A stretch of 64,000 nt of DNA, from the NCBI GenBank assembly GCA_020543525.1, contig JAHYIO010000007.1, forward strand, positions 620,001-684,000, written 5' to 3'. The position numbers were made by a program, and so were the translations under genes. Source of the stretch: Coriolopsis trogii (lineage: Eukaryota; Basidiomycota; Agaricomycetes; Polyporales; Polyporaceae). Below are positions 9,704 through 53,709 of this stretch, piece after piece. The notes beneath the pieces were generated by a model. It did no database searches. It saw only the letters and a program-made list of their open reading frames with translations, and had not been told where the DNA came from. Within the stretch, counting starts at the first letter, position 1, and the number at the start of each line of letters is the position of its first letter.

Positions 9704-10648
9704 ATGAGTCCGGAGAACTTTGCGCACTTCGAGTACCACAAGATGCAGGTTCGTGGTCGTCGTCATGTGCTGCCATGCTGTCATGAACGGTCTCCATTCT
9801 GTAGCTCATGGGCAGTTTGACTTCACTTGCGAACAATCTCCGTGAATGCGCAGGCTTTGCCGACCAGTTCGCTGGAATCGTCAACAACTTGACCTACGGT
9901 GGTAACGGCGTCGCCTTCTCTCTCGGGAACGGCCAATACCCCATGCCCGTCGCACCACCAATGATCCAAGACGATGGCAGCAAAAAGCGCAAGGCGCGCG
10001 GAGACGACCCGGACGGCAAGCGCAAGGCGAAGAAGCTCAAAGACCCGAACGCACCGAAACGTCCTCCCTCGTCATACCTCCTCTTCCAGAACGACATCCG
10101 CCAGCAGTTGAAGGCGAAGAATCCGGGGTTGAGCAACAATGAGCTCTTGGGCGCTATTTCCAAGTTGTGGGCAGAGATGCCGAAGGAGGAGAAAGACGTA
10201 CGTCCCCGCTACTGTACGCGTTCCGCCGAGTACTCATGGATTGTAGCAATACGAGCAACGCAACAAACTCGCGAAGGAGGAGTGGCTCGCGCAGAAGGCT
10301 GTCTACGAGACAGGGCACGGCGCAGCCCCGGGCATCCCGGTGAGCTTATCGCTGCTTGCCCCTCAGACGATCTGACACTCACCGTCAGCAATCTCCCAGC
10401 ACATTGCCTCCCCGGTAGTAGCACCCGCCAAAGTCGCGCCTCCTATCATACCCCCTCCAGCCGCTACTACTTCGCCCTCCTCCGATGACGAAGACTCCTC
10501 CCCGGAAGAAGATCAGTCGAGCTCAGATTCTAGCTCTGAAGAGGAGTCGAAACCTGACCCCCCGACGAAGAAGTCCAAGAAGGAGTCCGCGGCGGCTACC
10601 ACCAAGGAGGCGAAGAAGGAGAAGAAGCATAAGAAGACCAGAGACTGA
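9704..10648 (+). CDS. HMG-box chromatin protein (HMO1-like)
   Basis: Model: join(9704..9748, 9805..10197, 10247..10339, 10400..10648), 259 residues. A single HMG box spans about residues 83-155: DPNAPKRPPSSYLLFQNDIR, then the SKLWAEMPKEEKD segment continuing across an intron to QYEQRNKLAKEEW. It is preceded by a basic KKRKARGDD..KRKAKKLK stretch. The C-terminus is Pro/Ser-rich, then acidic (SSDDEDSSPEED), then Lys-rich. Such proteins bend DNA in chromatin; HMO1 in yeasts acts at rRNA and ribosomal protein genes. The HMO1 assignment is tentative because the N-terminal 80 residues were not matched. Exon 4 must begin at 10400; the earlier AG at 10388 shifts the frame into a stop. Confidence 0.8.
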
Positions 10649-12962: not shown

Positions 12963-14591
12963 TCAGGTCAGGGACGGTTCCACATCGCCAAGTTTCTGCT
13001 GAAATGCCTCGATACCTGCAGCAATAGTTGATTCTTTCGTCCTGGCGCATTGCTCCCTAAACTCTTCCGACGACCTCCATTCTCTCCAAGCGGTCTCCTC
13101 GCAGGTCCTCCACCACTCCTCAGTGAACGGGTGGCCCGGTGCTCCAGCATACCCCCATGGCTTCCCGCCGTATGGCTGCACGAACGGGTTGATCACCTCC
13201 GCAAGACTGGGGTGCAACGCTCCCGTGAAGTGAACGATAGCTGGGTCGTCCATGTCCTTCAGGTCGAGGGCTGCACGCTCGGGCGTGTGGTAACGGACGT
13301 ACGTCCCAAGCCCTTGCGCATTCCACTTCAAGCTGAGTGGGCGCCAGTTGCCCTGAAAATGCGCGTTCAGCGCGTCCTGGTCCTTGTGCGTGGACTCCTT
13401 CATCCTCGCGGCCGTCGCGAACAGCGGGAACTGGCTGTTACGGATGGAAGCGAGGTTCATGAGCATGACACCGGCGTTGAAGTACGGCTTGCTGCTGAGC
13501 TCGCTCGAACCGTGGCCCATGGGAAGCCCGACGTCGGGCGCCGCAGCAAGTGGTTTTCCTTCGAGGTCGGTATCCCAGAGCTCCTTCAAGTCGCGTCTAA
13601 CTAATGTATCCGCGTCGAGGTAGATAACTCTCTCTACCGGAAGGGAAGGGATCATGGAGATCTTCGCCCATGTGAGTCCTGCAGGACACGAGGCATCCAG
13701 AGTGACTCGGAGTAAGTCGACGAAAACGAGCGTAGCGTTCGCATTGTGCTCGATGGACTGCCGTAGCTTCGTCTTAACTTCACCCGACAGATCCCCAACG
13801 ACGTAGAAGGTGATGCGGCCCCTCGTGTGCGTTGCGGCGCTGCGTATCGCGACGGCCGCAGCGATGGCGTATTCAGAGTCGATGGTGAGGGCGACGTTGA
13901 TGCCGTACCCGAGTGCGTCCTCCAGTTTGTCCCCATCCAGTGCTAGCTCCTTGACAAGGAAGCCAATCCGCATGTCCACCGTCTTCTGCAGGACCAGCTG
14001 GTACTGCGTGTTGGAGGAGAGGAGAGTGAACTCCCCGACGTGGAGGGTGAGGAATGCATCGATCCCCCGCTTCGGGTGGTGAATGCTGTCCTCCGGCTCC
14101 CGGTCCCAGCGGTAGTCGTCGAAGATCATGATCGCACCCTTGCGTGCGAGTCGCCACGCCAGCTCCCCGTCGAGGAAGGTGTCATCCGCCTCGTGCGAAC
14201 CGTCGATGTAGAGCCAGTCGAAACCCGGCGTCGCGACAACCATCTCCTCCTTGAGGAGGGTCATGAGGCCCGGGACGCTGAACTCGTCGACGATTCGGAA
14301 GGGTTTGCCGGTGAGGGACAGGTTGTGGGTCAGCTTCCGGTGGCGCTCGCGTCCTGCAGCGGTGCGCATGAGGTCAAAATGGTCGATGCAGACGATCTCG
14401 CCGCCGGTGCGGCAGAGCTCTGTCAGCAGGAAGACGGCGGAGCGACCCTCCCATGAGCCTATTTCTAGAGCACGCGGCTGTGGTGCCTCGACACGCTTGA
14501 AGAGGGCGCGCCATACGTCGATATTTCCCGAGAACCAGTCCTGGCTGTCGGTGAAGTCATAGCCTGGATCCATGGCCGGAGACTTGGACAT
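12963..14591 (-). CDS. Methyltransferase-GT8 glycosyltransferase fusion protein
   Basis: One uninterrupted exon, 542 residues. The N-terminal half (about 25-205) fits a class I SAM-dependent methyltransferase of the Methyltransf_24 type: ALEIGSWEGRSAVFLL is the SAM-binding loop, followed by IVCIDHFD, WLYIDGSHEADDT and GAIMIFDDYRWD. The C-terminal half (about 225-470) fits a GT8 glycosyltransferase: NVALTIDSEYAIAAAVAIRS, the metal-binding DxD in YLDADTLVRRDL, YFNAGVMLMNL, HKDQDALN and IVHFTG. No signal peptide or membrane segment is evident. The sugar donor and acceptor cannot be read from the sequence. It diverges from the epimerase-glycosyltransferase gene 868 bases away, which suggests a shared promoter and pathway. 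The absence of introns contrasts with most neighbours and may point to transfer from bacteria, which is inference. Confidence 0.85.
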   Translation of the reverse strand: MSKSPAMDPGYDFTDSQDWFSGNIDVWRALFKRVEAPQPRALEIGSWEGRSAVFLLTELCRTGGEIVCIDHFDLMRTAAGRERHRKLTHNLSLTGKPFRIVDEFSVPGLMTLLKEEMVVATPGFDWLYIDGSHEADDTFLDGELAWRLARKGAIMIFDDYRWDREPEDSIHHPKRGIDAFLTLHVGEFTLLSSNTQYQLVLQKTVDMRIGFLVKELALDGDKLEDALGYGINVALTIDSEYAIAAAVAIRSAATHTRGRITFYVVGDLSGEVKTKLRQSIEHNANATLVFVDLLRVTLDASCPAGLTWAKISMIPSLPVERVIYLDADTLVRRDLKELWDTDLEGKPLAAAPDVGLPMGHGSSELSSKPYFNAGVMLMNLASIRNSQFPLFATAARMKESTHKDQDALNAHFQGNWRPLSLKWNAQGLGTYVRYHTPERAALDLKDMDDPAIVHFTGALHPSLAEVINPFVQPYGGKPWGYAGAPGHPFTEEWWRTCEETAWREWRSSEEFREQCARTKESTIAAGIEAFQQKLGDVEPSLT

Positions 14592-15459: not shown

Positions 15460-18400
15460 ATGCTTGACAAGTCCCAACTCATTCTCGTTACCGGTGGACA
15501 CGGGTTCATTGTGAGTACCTTGCCCATGTCGCATAGAGCGGTGAAGATAACCATATGCAGGGCGGTCACGTCGCACGCCATTTGGTCGCCCTGGGCTACA
15601 GCGTCAGAGTTACTGATATCATTCCCAAACCCCCCTTTCACGCTCCCGAAGTCGGAGAGGTCATCGTAGGTAACCTATGCGACCCTTCATTCTGCGCCCG
15701 TGTCGTGCAAGGCGGCGTGGATGCAGTACTCCATTTCGCTGCCACCATGGGCGGGATGGGGACCATCCATGCGGCCAACGACTTCATCATCTACAAGGAG
15801 AATTCCACCATGACCCTTAACATGCTCGACGCCTCTGTCGCAGCTGGGGTGCGGGTGTTCTTCTATGCGTCGTCCGCGTGCGTCTACCCGGAGTCTCTGC
15901 AGGCTCCTGGGTCAGACGTCTCGCTTGCGGAGGACGACGCGTGGAAGAACCCTCCCCCTCATCCCCAAGGCCTTTATGGTCTGGAGAAGCTCGTAAGCGA
16001 GCTTGTACTACATCAGTACGCCGCCTCTGGCCTCCAGCTCAGGATTGCTAGGTTCCATAACGTCTATGGAACTCTGGGATCCTGGTATGGAGGACGGGAG
16101 AAAGTACCAGCCGCTTTTCTCAGGAAAGCTTATGCGGCAAAGCTTTCTGGAGACTCCCCTGTTAGATTCGAAATATGGGGCGACGGGTCGCAACGACGGA
16201 GTTTCTGCTACATCGAGGACGCCGTGGAGGCCGTCCTCCGCCTTTTACAGTCGGATTACTCGGGGCCGATGAACGTTGGCTCCGAGCAAGCTGTCTCCAT
16301 CCAGCAGCTCGCCGACATGGCCCTCCTTATCGCCGGTGTCGAACCCGAGACTGTGACTTTCGTCTACGACCGCGAGAAGCCGGTGGGCGTCGGATCACGC
16401 AACTCCAATAACGCTCTTGTCCGCCAGACGTTAGGCTGGGAGCCGGTGCACTCTCTGCAGGATGGCATGCGTCTCACGGGCCGGTGGATTCGGGAGCAGA
16501 TCGAGGCGTCAATGCCCCTCAATGCCCCGGAGAGGAGGAGCTATCTTCGAGCTCTTCAGACCAGCGACTTGGTGGATCTTGCAGCGGAAGTTATCACATT
16601 TGCCATACTCCTCCCCATCACTTCACGCGGCTCAAGCTCCCCACAAGACTGCCTTGACAGCCTCACCGGTTTTGCGGACTCTCTCGCAGAAACGACGAAG
16701 GACGACACTGCACGCCTTGGAGAACGGTACCAGATACGCATGTACCTGGCTATCGATGCCGACGACACATTTCTCTGGCGGCCGAATGGTGAGAACGCTG
16801 CGGAGCCTATCCTGCGAGCACGGGGCTTCCAGAGTATCGTCACGCTTCCGCCCTGCACGCATCCGCGTGGACATGTCTGTGCTCTCTGGCGGGACTGCGC
16901 GCGTCGAGCGTACGAGGACCAATGCGACTACTACATTCTCATGGGAGACGACGTCGTTCTCCAGGATGCGAACTGGATGTCCGCTATTCACCGCGCTTTC
17001 ATCCAACTCTCGTCAGAGGAACGTGCGCCATTCGGTATCGGATGCGTCGCCTTCGAAGATACGTCGTTTCCTGGTATGCCGACCTTCCCTGTGGTACATC
17101 GCCTCCACATGGAGATCTTCGATGGAAACATCATTCCCGACTGCTTCGTCAATCAGGATGGCGATCCTTTCCTGTTTCAGCTCTACCGTCGATGGAATTG
17201 CTCACGGATGACTCCGTCGCGCATACACAATAAGCTGGGCGGGAGTAACGCTGCGCGCTACGACAAGGTGCACACAGCGGATTGGACGCTTGGGCCGCTG
17301 AACGACGCGACGAAGACGGTGGAAGCGTGGCTCAGCCGTCGTGCTCCTGACATCTCCCGCAAGGTGACGCTGGACGTCATTATTCCTTGCTACCGAGTCA
17401 ACATGCAGTACCTCGACGCTTTTCTCGCCCTTCGACCTTCGCGGACTTGTACTGTGATGTTCATCATCATCATTGACAATCCCCTGTCACCTCGGATCGG
17501 CGAGCTGTTGCAGAAGTACGGCAAGCGGTCGGACGTCCGCATCCGCGTCAACGAACGGAACCTTGGAGCGTCCGCATCACGCAATAGAGGGCTGCAGGAG
17601 TCTGCTGCGGAATGGGTCCATTTCCTTGATGACGACGTGACTCCAGAAAGGGACTTGCTCGTCGAAGCTGAGAAAGCTATACGCGCACATCCAGATGCCG
17701 CGGGCTTCGTCGGAAACGCGCATTTCCCTTCTGCCAATAGCATCTTCACTGCCGCAGTCCATCTTGCCGGGGTTACCTACTTCTGGAACATCGCGGAGAA
17801 AATCGAGGCGGACGTGCCGTGGGGCGTCACGGCAAACCTTCTCGCGCGTCGCAACGTCGGCGACCATGTTGTGTATGACTTGCAGTTCCCAAAGACAGGT
17901 GGCGGCGAAGACATCGACTACTGCCGCAAGAAGAGGGCATTTTCTCTCGCACAGGGCCGAGAGGGTTTCTACAGCGCGCCGAAGGTCAAGGTCACCCATC
18001 CATGGTGGAACGGAGGCCGTAGGTCCTACTGGAGATTTTATATGTGGTCGAAGGGAGACGGAGGACTGGTCAAGCTCTATCCGGAACACTCCTACCGCGA
18101 CCTATCGCCAAATGCGGCCGAGACATTACTTCTATGCTGCTTAGTGCTCGTGGTCGGTGGCGTTGTGGCCGTGGCAGACGTTGTGCTAGCCCTCCAGATT
18201 GTGCGCTTCGGCATCCTTTTGGCGACCTCCGTTATGTTGGCTAACATCGCATTCGACCTTGCTCGTCACCTCGCCCTTCATCCCGAGAGGAATGCGGACA
18301 TGAAGACAACGCTTAGTGGGGCGAAGTGGGTCTGCGCCATGGTAGAGGGTACGCTCATTCGCGTGTTCTCAGAGTGGGGTAGAGTGGTGGGCTTACTTGA

Positions 18401-18548
18401 CCGTGGTGAGTATGGGCATATCTTTATGCGGTTCGACTGGTTTTGCGGAGTGTGGGGAGAAAGGCCGCGGCGAGAGGAGATGGCGAACAATCAAGTGAGG
18501 ATGGCGCTGACTGCAGTAGTGTTTGCTGTGATATCTCAGTTCATATGA
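15460..18548 (+). CDS. GDP-mannose 3,5-epimerase-like / dual glycosyltransferase fusion with membrane tail
   Basis: Model: join(15460..15510, 15561..18548), 1012 residues. Residues 1-340 are an SDR-family epimerase close to GDP-mannose 3,5-epimerase: NAD motif TGGHGFIGGH, AATMGGMGTI, SSACVYPE with the catalytic Cys, YGLEK (YxxxK), NVYGTLGSWYGGREK with the catalytic Lys, and RNSNN. About 360-600 looks like a GT-A-type domain (LPITSRG, YYILMGDDVVLQ). About 618-860 is a GT2-like transferase: LDVIIPCYRVNM, NERNLGASASRNRGL and HFLDDDVTPE. Hydrophobic segments follow at about 870-925 and at the C-terminus. GME-type enzymes turn GDP-mannose into GDP-galactose or gulose. Carrying this with two transferases in one chain suggests donor synthesis coupled to transfer at a membrane. 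The only intron falls inside the NAD loop. Confidence 0.85.
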
Positions 18549-40128: not shown

Positions 40129-42999
40129 TTATACGGTATATGATACAGTGGCAGCAGTCCCTCTGCGTTTCCTGCGCCTCCGAAGCAACCACCACGCCGG
40201 CTTCGACCTCTTACGCCTCAATGGCAACCCTTTCATCTTCAACGTCGGTAGTGTCGTTGCCTTGAACGTCTCCGGCGGCTTCGGCGGGAACATGAGCGGA
40301 CGGCGCGCTGACTCCTTCCTCGGCTTCCTCGTTGTCATTGGCCCTCGCCACCTCCACACCAACAGATAGTGGTACGCTTCCGGTATGCTGTATCCGTTCA
40401 GGACCATACTCAATGCGAGCTTATGCAGCATCGGCGTCCAGCCCTCCGCCTTGGTTCCCTTTCTCCTCTGCTCCTCTAGGCGCAGTCGCCAGTACGCGCG
40501 TGAGCGCTGGCCTTGCCTCAGCGGGGCGAAGAGCTTGAGCGCAGCATTGAAGAACCGTGCGTCAGGTACGACCGTCGACCTCCTCAACCCATCTGTCGAG
40601 TCTTCATCCTCGGTCCAGAACGGCGGCGCGTCGGGGGCGGGGGCGGGGTGTGCGTTGTACAAAATCAGGGTCTTCAACAGCGCGCGGCCTCCGGAGACCA
40701 TCGACTGATAGAGCAGCATCGCGTTCCGCCTGCTCGTCTGGTGCCTCGTGAACGTCGGTGCCGTGCGCCGGGTGCCCAGCCTGAACACGTAGTGTGCGTA
40801 CCCGGTGCGGTAATGCGAAGCCTTGGGCTGCCAGGTCCCGTGTGTTTGCAGCAGCTCGCTGCCCGCGTGGTACTTGGCAAGCTGGTGCCGGGGCAACCGC
40901 CGATGCGCAAGTCGCATGTAGCCCTGCATCATCGAGGTGTAGGCGTGGATGGAGAGCCGCCACGGCTTGACGCCCTCTACAAAGTCCGGGCTGTGGCTCG
41001 CGCGCTGGGCCTGCTGAGCGAGAATGAAGACGCGCTCGGCGAGGCCAATCTCTCCTGCCTTCACGAGGGCGTTGATTAGCGCGCCATAGAAGTATGGTCC
41101 GTACTTCACGGCATGCTGCAGCGCCTGCTTGCGGCTGCGTTTGAAGAGACGCACAGGTTCCCCGTTTGTCGCGGGGTGGTCGATGAGGTGCAGCTCGGGC
41201 AAGATGGTGAAAATCGCAGAGGCGATTTGTTCCGGACGACCGGAAGATGCAATATGAGTGACATAGGACGTGAGCGTCGAGCTCCCCGGCCTCAACCTGA
41301 CGTTAGGTGTCGCAACTTGCTGGGGAAGGTTGAGCTCTTCAGAGTCGAGTCTGGCCAATGATGAGGGTAACTGTGAAGATGGAATGGACACTGAACGGCT
41401 GGGAACCTCCTCCGTTCTTTCTGATCCCCTCGACACTGGGCTGGAGACTGGCGCACTGGAGCCTGCAGACACGGCGATGTCGCTTGGCAGCATCTCCTTC
41501 CCTAGCCGCTGACCGGCAGCCTGGAGAGCGGCCAACGCCTCCTCGCTGATACGAAGCTTCCGCAAAAGGGTTCCCGAACGAATCAGGATATTGTAGGTGA
41601 CGATATCCGGTTCGAGCGGCGGGTTGCGAGCGACACACATGTGGTGCAGAACTGTAGAAGCCATGGTAGGAGATAACTGTTGTCTCAGCGCGTAGGACAG
41701 GAGTGTGTTATATGCCCGCCTGTACAGAATCGGCGGAGGGCGGTCGGAACTGCCCAACCTGCGGATCAAGCGTTCGAGGACCTGATGGAAGTACGTGTAG
41801 GCTTTGACCTTGACCATTTGACCGTCCCGTATGATCCAGACTTGTGTCTTGACCTTCGGACAGTTGGAAAGGGTGCGAATGATGGCAGCAACGCGGTGCG
41901 TATGTATCTGACCAGTGTCCAAGAGCATCGCGAAGACTGCCAGACTCTGCAGATACTGGAACATAAAAGGGCCTGACTCTGTGTCCGTTGGCCGAGCAAT
42001 GTATCCATCGATTGCGTCCAGAATGTTGGCCATCGACTTCAAGTCGGGGTATGGAGCAGCCGCAAGGTTGTCTCTGGAGGGCTGGGGGACACCCAAATGG
42101 TCGTACGAGATATGATCGTTCTGCGACACGTGCGCAGCGCCATCCTGTAGCTTCCTCAGTTCCCAATCTTTGATGAGCATCACAAACAGTAGCGTCGCGA
42201 CGATGATCTCCCCTTGCATGAGAAGGGTGGAGACGAGGACGCGATACATACGCTCCGTACGTTGCTGACCAAAGGTCCTCGCAGCCTGCAAGAGCTCGAC
42301 AGCAGCGCGTGCACATTCGTCACTAACCAGCTTGGTCTGCAATTGAAGAATCGATGGTTCACTGGAAACTTGCTTGCGGGGTATGACGCGCGCGAAAGGA
42401 CCAAAACGGGGGATGACTGAGGATGGCTGAGGAGGAGCAAGGATAGACTCGAGAGTCTTACTCTTGATAGGGATGCCGACTTGCATCATCAGCCGAGCAT
42501 ACGTTTGGGCCTTTGAGGAATGCCCGTGACGGATGAGACCATGGAGGAAAGCATGCGCTGCAAGGCGAGGGGAGACTGGCCGTCCGAAGTCGATAGGTTC
42601 AAGTTGTGACGCGGATTCTTGGCTCTCCTCTTCATGAAGCGATCCACGAAGAACAGAGTGGCACGCGGAGTTGACCACATAGAGTGCGTCGCCGAACTCG
42701 CCTTCGCGGATGGATAGGCGGACAGTTCGAGCTGCGACACGTGACACTTGTGCGTCGCTCAAAGAAGCAGTAGCAGAGGCGAAAGTGATGGAAGAGGAAT
42801 CCGGAGGGAAACTGGTTGTGGGATTGGAAGGGGTGGTCCGGGCTACAGCAGAGAAATACCGGAGGCTCAGGGACGTGGGTCGACTGCATCCCAGAGTGTT
42901 GCGAGAAGTCAACTTCGTCGCGACGTGATGTGGGGTCGTAAAGGAGCCAAAAGACCTGCGCAGGAAGAAGCTGGCCGTCGTTGACCAACTACATTGCAT
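40129..42999 (-). CDS. Large mitochondrial PPR-like protein
   Basis: One exon, 956 residues. The N-terminus is rich in Ser, Arg and Thr with few acidic residues and fits a mitochondrial presequence. The body has helical repeats resembling pentatricopeptide units, for example PDIVTYNILIRSGTLLRK, YGALINALVKAGEIGLAERV and SIHAYTSMMQGYMRLAHR. Such proteins bind organellar RNA; no specific target can be named. The C-terminus is basic (MKGLPLRRKRSKPAWW). It is convergent with IF3, with only 99 bases between stops, and divergent from CBP80. It has no introns, unlike most of its neighbours. Confidence 0.7.
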   Translation of the reverse strand: MQCSWSTTASFFLRRSFGSFTTPHHVATKLTSRNTLGCSRPTSLSLRYFSAVARTTPSNPTTSFPPDSSSITFASATASLSDAQVSRVAARTVRLSIREGEFGDALYVVNSACHSVLRGSLHEEESQESASQLEPIDFGRPVSPRLAAHAFLHGLIRHGHSSKAQTYARLMMQVGIPIKSKTLESILAPPQPSSVIPRFGPFARVIPRKQVSSEPSILQLQTKLVSDECARAAVELLQAARTFGQQRTERMYRVLVSTLLMQGEIIVATLLFVMLIKDWELRKLQDGAAHVSQNDHISYDHLGVPQPSRDNLAAAPYPDLKSMANILDAIDGYIARPTDTESGPFMFQYLQSLAVFAMLLDTGQIHTHRVAAIIRTLSNCPKVKTQVWIIRDGQMVKVKAYTYFHQVLERLIRRLGSSDRPPPILYRRAYNTLLSYALRQQLSPTMASTVLHHMCVARNPPLEPDIVTYNILIRSGTLLRKLRISEEALAALQAAGQRLGKEMLPSDIAVSAGSSAPVSSPVSRGSERTEEVPSRSVSIPSSQLPSSLARLDSEELNLPQQVATPNVRLRPGSSTLTSYVTHIASSGRPEQIASAIFTILPELHLIDHPATNGEPVRLFKRSRKQALQHAVKYGPYFYGALINALVKAGEIGLAERVFILAQQAQRASHSPDFVEGVKPWRLSIHAYTSMMQGYMRLAHRRLPRHQLAKYHAGSELLQTHGTWQPKASHYRTGYAHYVFRLGTRRTAPTFTRHQTSRRNAMLLYQSMVSGGRALLKTLILYNAHPAPAPDAPPFWTEDEDSTDGLRRSTVVPDARFFNAALKLFAPLRQGQRSRAYWRLRLEEQRRKGTKAEGWTPMLHKLALSMVLNGYSIPEAYHYLLVWRWRGPMTTRKPRKESARRPLMFPPKPPETFKATTLPTLKMKGLPLRRKRSKPAWWLLRRRRKRRGTAATVSYTV

Positions 43000-51431: not shown

Positions 51432-53709
51432 ATGCCTTGCTTACCACCCTTCTGTCCCTCTGTTCGTCGATATCTACACTCTTTGTTCAAGTGGTCCGGA
51501 CAGAAAGGACCCGCGCCTTCCGAGTCCGACTCTGTCTCGGTAAAGGCGGTTTCGCCCACGACAGATCACAAATTTGGAAGCCCCAATCCTGAAGACAGCG
51601 AGCTATACAACAATGGCAGCGCAAACGTGTCGTGAGTGCTGTAGTTTAGTGGTCTGGGCTATTCCAATGCTCACCAGACCGTAGGTCATCTAGGTCACTC
51701 GTTTGTGCCTTCTGTTGGGATTCCGGCCTCTTTGCGCCAGGTCCCTTCCAGGAAGCTTGGGAGGCTCTCATATCCTACACCGGCTTCTCGTACCACACAA
51801 CATGGAGTCAGGTCAAATTGTCTGCCGAGGGAGGCTGCCACTGGTGCAAGCTGCTCCTCGCCACGAGAATCGAGAACGTTCCCGGCGAGGCACTTCAAGT
51901 CACCGCCGGCTTTCGACCTAGCTCAGCAGATCACAAAGCCAATCCGAAAGGGGTGCAGACTCTCAGGCTTATGCTCAATGAAAGTCCGCATTCGGTTTAC
52001 TACGTCTCTACCACCTCAGGTCTGCGGTCACCATAGACGATTCAGGTGGATGCTGACCATGAACCTCAGACGATGCTGCGGCACCTCATATTATTGCCAG
52101 ACCTCGCACACTGCAGGTCAACTCACCTTCCGTTCGGTCTATGGCTTCGGACTGCATCATGGACTGTATCCGCACTCACGAGCGCTGCCCCCCGCCGCAC
52201 AACACAGCCCTACCGACCCGTGTTATTGACTGTTCGGATCCCGCACATCCCAGATTGCTATGTCCCGATGGCGAAAAAGCATCATACCTTGCTCTCAGCT
52301 ACGTGCGAGGCACAACCAGCTCGGGGTATCATACAACCACGAAGAACATAGAAACTCGTCTGCAGGGCCTCGACCCTAGCATCCTTCCACAGACAATCCG
52401 AGACGCCATCGAGACAACGCAGGGGTTCGGAGTGCGCTATCTCTGGGTGGATGCGCTGTGCATTCTTCAAGACACCGAAGAAGACAAGGCGCGCGAGACA
52501 GCCCAACTGCCCGCGATCTTTGGCAACGCCTACTTCACGATCGTCGCAGCGAGCGCACGCGATGTCGAAGCTGGCTTCCTGCAAGATCGAGCACCGCCGT
52601 CTCCTCCAGATGTTCTCCTCCCCTTCCGCTGTCCTGATGGCCAGGTCGGCACCATGTCTCTGTCCCCTGTGTGGCGTCAGTATGATGGCTCAGGGGAGCC
52701 CGTGAATGAGCGTGCGTGGTGCTTCGAGGAGCGACTCCTCTCAGCCCGCTCCCTCGTGTATGCCTCGCACACGCTCCAATATCACTGCCGGCATTCCGTT
52801 CTCAACGTAGGCAACGCTGTCTGTGGGCCCATGATCGGACAGCGACTTCCAGACCTTCTCTTCCGCTCCGCTGCTGATCCTGGAGCCTCGGCCGTCGCGT
52901 TGTCCCCCAAAGACACGAGGACGCTGCGCTGGGCGTGGGTCGAAGCCGTCGGAGAGTACACGCAACGCGCACTCACAGAGCCGGGCGACAAGCTCATCGC
53001 GTTCGCCGCCATCGCCGAGCTCTTCCACCGCGCCTGGCGAGTTGACTACCTCGCCGGACTCTGGCGCTCAACGCTCCTCCAAGACCTCCTCTGGTACACG
53101 AACCCGAGCACGCGCTGCACGCGCCCGGCCCAATACAGAGCGCCCACGTGGTCCTGGGCCGCCGTCGACGGCCGCATCCTCGCCTCCTCCACCGACGACA
53201 GGCTCGACCCGGACGCGAAGGACACCCAGACGTGCGCGGTCGTGAGCTGCGACGTCGCCCCCGTCACCCCCGTCCTGCCTTTTGGCGCCGTCGCCTCCGG
53301 CACCCTCGTCCTCCGCGGTGTCATGGTCGAGGCCGTCTGGAACCCGGGCTCGCCCACCCCGGATCTATACGCGCAACCCGACTCGGACGCGTACGCCCCG
53401 GGGGCGTTTGGGGAAGGGGAGGAGGACTCCCCGGTCGAGCCGCCGTACATCGGCTGCGCGTACCCCGACAGTAGCGCGGAGGCGGACGTGGACGAGGTGT
53501 GGGCGGTGCCCTTGTTGTGGAACAGGGCGTCGCAGCACACCGCGGGGCTCATCGTGGCGCGAGCGGACGGGGGTGCTGATGGTAGAGCTGAGGGCAGCGC
53601 CCCTGAGGAGAGGTATCGCCGGGTGGGGTTCTTCCACTCGCCGGAGGACGCCTCTGGGGGACTGGCGTGGATGTCGGATGGAAAGGAGCGGGACATTGTT
53701 CTCATATGA
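51432..53709 (+). CDS. Heterokaryon-incompatibility (HET) domain protein
   Basis: Model: join(51432..51631, 51694..52019, 52070..53709), 721 residues. An N-terminal Cys-rich region (CAFCWDSG, GGCHWCKLL) precedes HIIARPRTLQVNSPSVRSM and CIRTHERCPPP, the usual lead-in of basidiomycete HET proteins. The HET domain follows (about 230-400): YLALSYVRGT, LPQTIRDAIETTQGFGVRYL, WVDALCILQDTEEDK and ERAWCFEERLLSARSLVY. In ascomycetes such domains trigger cell death on fusion with non-self; in basidiomycetes their role is mostly unknown. The family's YxWG is here YVRG, Trp replaced by Arg. The acceptor of exon 2 could also be 51684, adding three residues. The N-terminal exon is the least certain part. 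Confidence 0.82.

Follow-up and report, generated by a model that had tools for sequence, protein, structure and literature searches.

A GME-like epimerase fused to two glycosyltransferase-like domains and a hydrophobic tail in Coriolopsis trogii and other Agaricomycetes

Does a mushroom-forming fungus carry, on a single polypeptide, both an epimerase that forms a GDP-hexose and the glycosyltransferases that would use it? An initial annotation of the window, the whole 64,000-nucleotide stretch of a Coriolopsis trogii contig analysed here, had described an open reading frame at 15460-18548 in which a GDP-mannose 3,5-epimerase (GME) was fused in frame to two glycosyltransferase-like domains and a membrane tail. 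Its coordinates and the fusion stood, but the frame is not uninterrupted, as a single frame requires the removal of a 50-bp intron. The gene lies on the forward strand and its exon 1 (15460..15510) begins with the ATG at 15460 and comprises 51 nt or 17 codons, an assignment based on the sequence and the N-terminus of an ortholog; it encodes the first half of the NAD-binding glycine loop (TGGHGFI). The intron (15511..15560, forward strand), predicted from sequence and homology, is in phase 0 with the form GTGAGT...CAG, and exon 2 (15561..18548, forward strand) has 995 codons plus the stop, with 15561-18545 open in frame. Because the intron cuts the NAD loop between TGGHGFI and GGHVARHL, the mechanical ORF list began this ORF only at 15555. 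The spliced product of 1,012 aa agrees at its N-terminus with the annotated Trametes cingulata ortholog P0001, which is also 1,012 aa long and 73% identical. Shuffling the mononucleotides of the window 20 times and reading three frames of one strand gave a longest stop-free run of 325 codons, as against 995 in exon 2. The exon-2 protein is single-copy in the 38.8-Mb assembly, where the window lies on contig C7 and the sole other match, at 30%, lies in the epimerase part. That separate genes have been read as one, through an artefact of the gene model or the assembly, is scarcely credible: the gene does appear divided in some database models (P0122 and P0148, both from Lentinula aciculospora), but exon 2 has its 995 open codons and the fusion recurs as single proteins in many species. 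As a predicted product the three-domain protein is confirmed as real at these coordinates, and conservation supports its being a single chain.

The fusion is not singular. A full-length search, in which 7,994 proteins were scored, returned 401 at E 1e-3 or better, and the best 120 of these 401 were 54-73% identical to the spliced protein over at least 851 aligned columns. A search for the same three-domain order in other fungi had been proposed in the initial annotation, and the best-scoring domains were ordered GME-middle-GT2 in 120/120 of the best 120 homologs, using profiles built from those same homolog sequences. Counting the earliest match instead gave 115/120; in the other five a GT2 match of ~0 bits fell within the epimerase. 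Inspection by eye of the precomputed Pfam annotation of the listed homologs showed PF01370 and PF00535 in their rows, and many are annotated as 'NAD-dependent epimerase/dehydratase', 'glycosyltransferase family 2 protein' or 'hypothetical protein'. Among the named members are Tulasnella (Cantharellales), Rickenella (Hymenochaetales) and Ramaria (Gomphales), and others come from the Polyporales, Russulales, Boletales, Agaricales, Gloeophyllales, Amylocorticiales and Atheliales. The closest named relatives are Polyporales, among which the window protein groups. A full-length tree of 43 proteins (the window protein and 42 of the best 120) placed the Polyporales, Russulales, Boletales, Gloeophyllales and Cantharellales each on one side of a branch, with two changes required for the Agaricales. 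The tree agrees for the most part with the orders and so fits an old fusion that would have been inherited mainly by descent. Contrary to expectation, an Atheliales protein (P0068) groups with the Cantharellales (98/92), which may represent a transfer, a mislabel or a weak placement.

GME itself is common in bacteria and viral contigs, from which the best 80 of at least 586 bacterial loci and the best 80 of at least 600 viral-contig loci were taken. In none of these 160 loci, all with a strong GME frame, was there a C-terminal partner, the frame ending no more than 34 aa beyond the domain. Together with two weak epimerase loci they make up 162 loci (L003-L164) with 7,803 stop-to-stop frames of at least 80 aa, among which the middle-domain profile gave 0 matches and the GT2 profile gave 21 at E <=1e-3 (best 2.1e-10), which we read as probably ordinary GT2 genes. 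A profile of the glycosyltransferase half picked out 131 stretches in viral contigs that matched a pattern, none of them a relative; the two weak epimerase loci counted above came from a search with the window sequence alone.

The first domain (15460..16514 on the forward strand, intron included; residues 1-335) has the hallmarks that had been listed for a GME, all of which were found: GGHGFIGG, split by the intron, SSACVYPE, YGLEK, GREK and RNSNN. It scored 122.7 bits against the Pfam model Epimerase (PF01370; cut-off 20.9), and the first five PDB matches were all GMEs, with E values from 5.5e-71 (2c59) to 3.8e-70. PMC8787198 gives the diagnostic residues of GME, including the catalytic triad S143/Y174/K178 and the acid/base pair C145/K217. 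When residues were mapped through the PDB-hit alignment, with numbering set on the catalytic Cys, eight out of eight were present: S122, C124, Y156 and K160 correspond to Arabidopsis S143, C145, Y174 and K178, and N184, K198, R230 and R297 to N203, K217, R243 and R306. Conservation was counted over 121 rows, the window and the best 120 of the 401 homologs. In the triad the serine is kept in 117/121 with threonine in 3/121 and one gap, and the tyrosine and lysine are each kept in 120/121 with one gap; in the acid/base pair C124 is found in 120/121 (one gap) and K198 in 121/121, and R297, R230 and N184 are identical in 121/121. The case for a GME-like epimerase, as the domain had first been named, is strong on this homology.

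A close match to another sugar-nucleotide family had been named as the finding that would tell against this assignment. In the PDB search GDP-L-fucose synthase came only second, following the GMEs at E 2.2e-19, but in the fungus's own genome the GDP-fucose-synthase model peaks on the gene itself, with 87 bits against 66 and 36 for pieces on contig C36; this search was six-frame and exon by exon with introns ignored, and none of the scores was near the cut-off of 500. According to PMC8787198, a Lys base and the Cys-acidifying Arg306 mark GME, whereas GDP-fucose synthase has His and Lys at these positions. Identity as a GDP-fucose synthase was rejected on the residues found, Lys as the base and Arg as the Cys-acidifying residue, and on the score of 83.8 bits against the cut-off of 500 for NF047922. 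Contig C36 has GMD-like matches in three neighbouring groups together with fucose-synthase-like pieces, none over the curated cut-offs; at ~662-672 kb (L165-L172, L174-L175) the two kinds of match lie within ~10 kb. The region is a likely GDP-fucose gene cluster and is read as a separate GDP-fucose pathway.

The closest known system for the first domain is the Arabidopsis GME (2C54/2C59/2C5A/2C5E), to which it is homologous throughout with 48% identity and the eight diagnostic residues, but from which the fungal protein differs in its fusion to two glycosyltransferases and a tail, its changed glycine loop and the replacement of R304-G305. Over the stretch compared, the window epimerase was 48% identical to the Arabidopsis enzyme; identity to a green alga was 46%, and to bacteria it averaged 44%. 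While 59 columns that are at least 95% fixed in 80 bacterial GMEs are at least 90% kept in 104 fungal domains, another 14 such bacterial columns are kept by <30% of the fungal domains. The changed columns include the bacterial glycine-loop A-G, Arabidopsis D101 and R304-G305 beside the catalytic R306; the fungal loop retains G-x-x-G-x-x-G without the A-G pair. In an epimerase tree of 75 rows the 16 rows labelled fungal clustered together, with one unlabelled environmental row among them (100/100), and the stem leading to this group measured 2.17 changes per column. The branch that joins the group to green plants lacks support (44/96); two viral-contig rows are very long, and the bootstrap of the tree had not settled. 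Since 14 columns that are nearly fixed in bacteria have been replaced and the stem is long, the substrate or product may have shifted. A descendant of GME that now mainly makes GDP-L-gulose, GDP-D-altrose or another GDP-hexose for use by the glycosyltransferases would account for the long stem and for replacements that partly adjoin the catalytic Arg, and PMC8787198 describes L-gulose and D-altrose as by-products of known GMEs. We consider this unlikely, given the full set of diagnostic residues and the 59 columns that stay at least 90% kept in fungi. An inactive epimerase, retained as a scaffold or sensor for the glycosyltransferases, is very improbable; the long stem is compatible with relaxed constraint, but the catalytic Cys, Lys, Tyr and Arg hardly vary, which would be unexpected after loss of catalysis. 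The product is taken, with moderate confidence, to be GDP-L-galactose.

Both later thirds of the protein were borne out as glycosyltransferase-like, the last by its score above the Pfam cut-off and the middle one as a GT-A domain by structure prediction. The GT2 domain (17352..18089, forward strand; residues 615-860) scored 49.4 bits against 23.3 for PF00535. It contains the DDD motif that had been pointed out earlier, as LDDDV (17625..17639, forward strand; residues 706-710), with LDDD in 121/121 rows, and GGGEDID (17898..17918, forward strand; residues 797-803), with GGGEDI in 121/121; these presumably act as the DxD motif and the ED-type catalytic base, as in the GT2 family. The middle domain (16572..17309, forward strand; residues ~355-600) had no Pfam family above cut-off and no NCBIfam match among 25 of the 30 rows of that search; by sequence nothing in the PDB matched it below E 0.23, and its best PHROG match, a glycosyltransferase, was weak (E 0.027). 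It carries GDDVVL (16944..16961, forward strand; residues 479-484), a putative DxD-like metal or nucleotide motif whose first D is found in 118/121 rows (E in 3) and whose second D is found in 121/121; in the predicted model it adjoins the end of a strand. A catalytic base is proposed in NQDGDP (17151..17168, forward strand; residues 548-553) from conservation and position in the model, where it would occupy the loop-before-helix place of the GT2 ED motif. Both domains have confident GT-A predicted models with conserved DxD-like and base-like motifs. That the middle domain is a sequence-level duplicate of the GT2 domain was rejected on a profile-profile probability of 0.3%; the GT-A fold shared by the models leaves a deep homology of the two possible. 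Searched alone, against proteins 0.55-1.75 times its length, the middle domain found 17 proteins, read as pieces or split models of the same fusion family. Two proteins, P0131 (~42% identical in the glycosyltransferase part) and P0152, appear to be pieces of a divergent family member in an environmental contig whose source may lie outside the sampled orders.

Two GT-A domains in one chain, as seen in the predicted models, recall polymerases of the K4CP kind. K4CP (E. coli K4 chondroitin polymerase), heparosan synthase 2 and LARGE1 each have two GT-A domains per chain, and we know of no fused epimerase in any of them. In a Foldseek search with the glycosyltransferase half K4CP took ranks 1-6, with a global TM of ~0.3, and LARGE1 and Pasteurella heparosan synthase 2 first appeared at ranks 9 and 16; across these dual-domain polymerases sequence identity to the half was 11-13% and TM-scores were 0.22-0.33. 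The membrane GT2 synthases (hyaluronan, cellulose and chitin synthase) are also among the closest known systems. The GDP-L-fucose transferase WrtF (9OMx entries) was 8% identical, its score lying within 1 Z of those of several other enzymes, and no paper on WrtF was found in the literature searched. By analogy with the dual-domain enzymes the fusion protein may polymerise. Against viral models the best Foldseek match to the half was an uncharacterised 304-aa protein of the giant virus CeV-01B (E 2.5e-14, 21% identity), and a Cafeteria roenbergensis virus protein also ranked high. GT-A folds are common to many donors and acceptors. The fold does not reveal the donor, and the UDP-sugar enzymes TarP, K4CP and hyaluronan synthase are among the structures closest to the half, so it is conceivable that the glycosyltransferases use other donors, such as UDP-sugars, and that the fusion only co-localises or co-regulates an uncoupled pair. 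This we hold to be quite unlikely, as the domain order is kept in 120/120 of the best 120 homologs and an epimerase on a glycosyltransferase chain would most simply supply the donor.

The hydrophobic tail expected after these domains was also found (18090..18545, forward strand), with four long predicted helices following the GT2 domain. In the window protein two of its stretches exceed the Kyte-Doolittle cut of 1.6, and helix three, read by eye, is polar on one side. The number of hydrophobic stretches among the best 120 homologs was 0 (1 protein), 1 (36), 2 (53), 3 (29) or 6 (1). Two hydrophobic windows that precede the tail in the window protein, at residues ~351-373 and ~637-656, were rejected as membrane segments on their position, since for the most part they coincide with or adjoin beta strands of the glycosyltransferase model. 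A hydrophobic stretch within the first 45 residues was present in only 2/120 of the same homologs. The part of the NAD loop encoded by exon 1 is covered by letters in only 73/120, and some homolog N-termini may therefore be incomplete. A signal peptide is unlikely, so that the catalytic domains would lie on one side of the membrane, most simply the cytosol. GDP-mannose is made in the cytosol. That the domains should face it is also argued by the three catalytic domains preceding the tail and by a protein that starts directly with a Rossmann fold, and the membrane location itself is suggested by the tail. Plant GME is cytosolic according to PMC11066809.

We incline towards a membrane-anchored, cytosol-facing make-and-transfer enzyme in which the product of the epimerase is used by a glycosyltransferase on the same chain. 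In the first step, which is strongly supported by the conserved residues, GDP-mannose would be oxidised at C4 by bound NAD and epimerised at C5 and C3 by the Cys124/Lys198 pair. The GDP-sugar would then reach one of the two GT-A domains, which would add its sugar to a growing or lipid-linked glycan, and the other domain would add a second sugar in alternation, as in dual-domain polymerases; this transfer of the epimerase product we infer from the arrangement of the domains. The C-terminal hydrophobic helices would hold the enzyme at the membrane. Fusion would also draw the reversible epimerisation forward.

Next to the gene, head to head on the reverse strand (12963..14591), is a single-exon gene for a 542-aa protein that fuses Methyltransf_24 (MT24) to an LgtC-like GT8 domain, the two start codons being separated by 868 bp. 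One weak match aside, it is single-copy in its own genome. That two chimeric sugar enzymes lie side by side suggests a shared product, and the MT24-GT8 protein is a possible partner of the GME fusion. Elsewhere in the window there are a HET-domain ORF (52141-53709, forward strand), a weakly PPR-like ORF (40129-42999, reverse strand) and an HMG-box ORF (9808-10488, forward strand).

What the product might serve can be approached through what fungi are known to make. PMC8787198 records GME activity in green plants and algae, in a snail and in bacteria, and no word beginning 'fung' occurs in that GME review. No paper on a fungal GME or a GME-glycosyltransferase fusion appeared among those listed by the literature searches, which took in few subscription journals; the initial annotation had likewise known of no described fungal enzyme of such a build and none turned up. 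According to PMC11066809, fungi produce D-erythroascorbate in place of ascorbate, and a GME fused to glycosyltransferases across the Agaricomycetes therefore probably serves glycan synthesis. An ascorbate-like use is possible, since a review on vitamin C notes that a number of fungi draw on L-galactose, along with other sugars, for analogues of ascorbate (PMC9602106). No report of L-galactose in a named mushroom glycan was found among the papers listed: mentions of 'L-galactose' or 'L-Galp' in four of them concern red algae, a sugar inhibiting a Rhizoctonia lectin and a general monomer list in a review of bacteria and fungi, and a term search of two Ganoderma polysaccharide papers gave no epimerase and no L-galactose. 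A more tentative and, in our view, doubtful extension is that there is an unrecognised mushroom glycan containing L-galactose (or L-gulose or D-altrose), whose donor is made, and polymerised with a second sugar, by one cytosol-facing tandem-glycosyltransferase chain, and whose extension or methylation may fall to the MT-GT8 neighbour.

The components are of known kinds and it is the combined build that, judged on sequence, seems new. An epimerase and transferase naturally united in one chain would open a direct way to glycans with rare sugars, and it offers a clear gene-deletion target in laboratory mushrooms and a testable function for a large, conserved and apparently unstudied mushroom family. 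The fusion suggests that mushroom-forming fungi may produce a rare sugar, for instance L-galactose, and transfer it.
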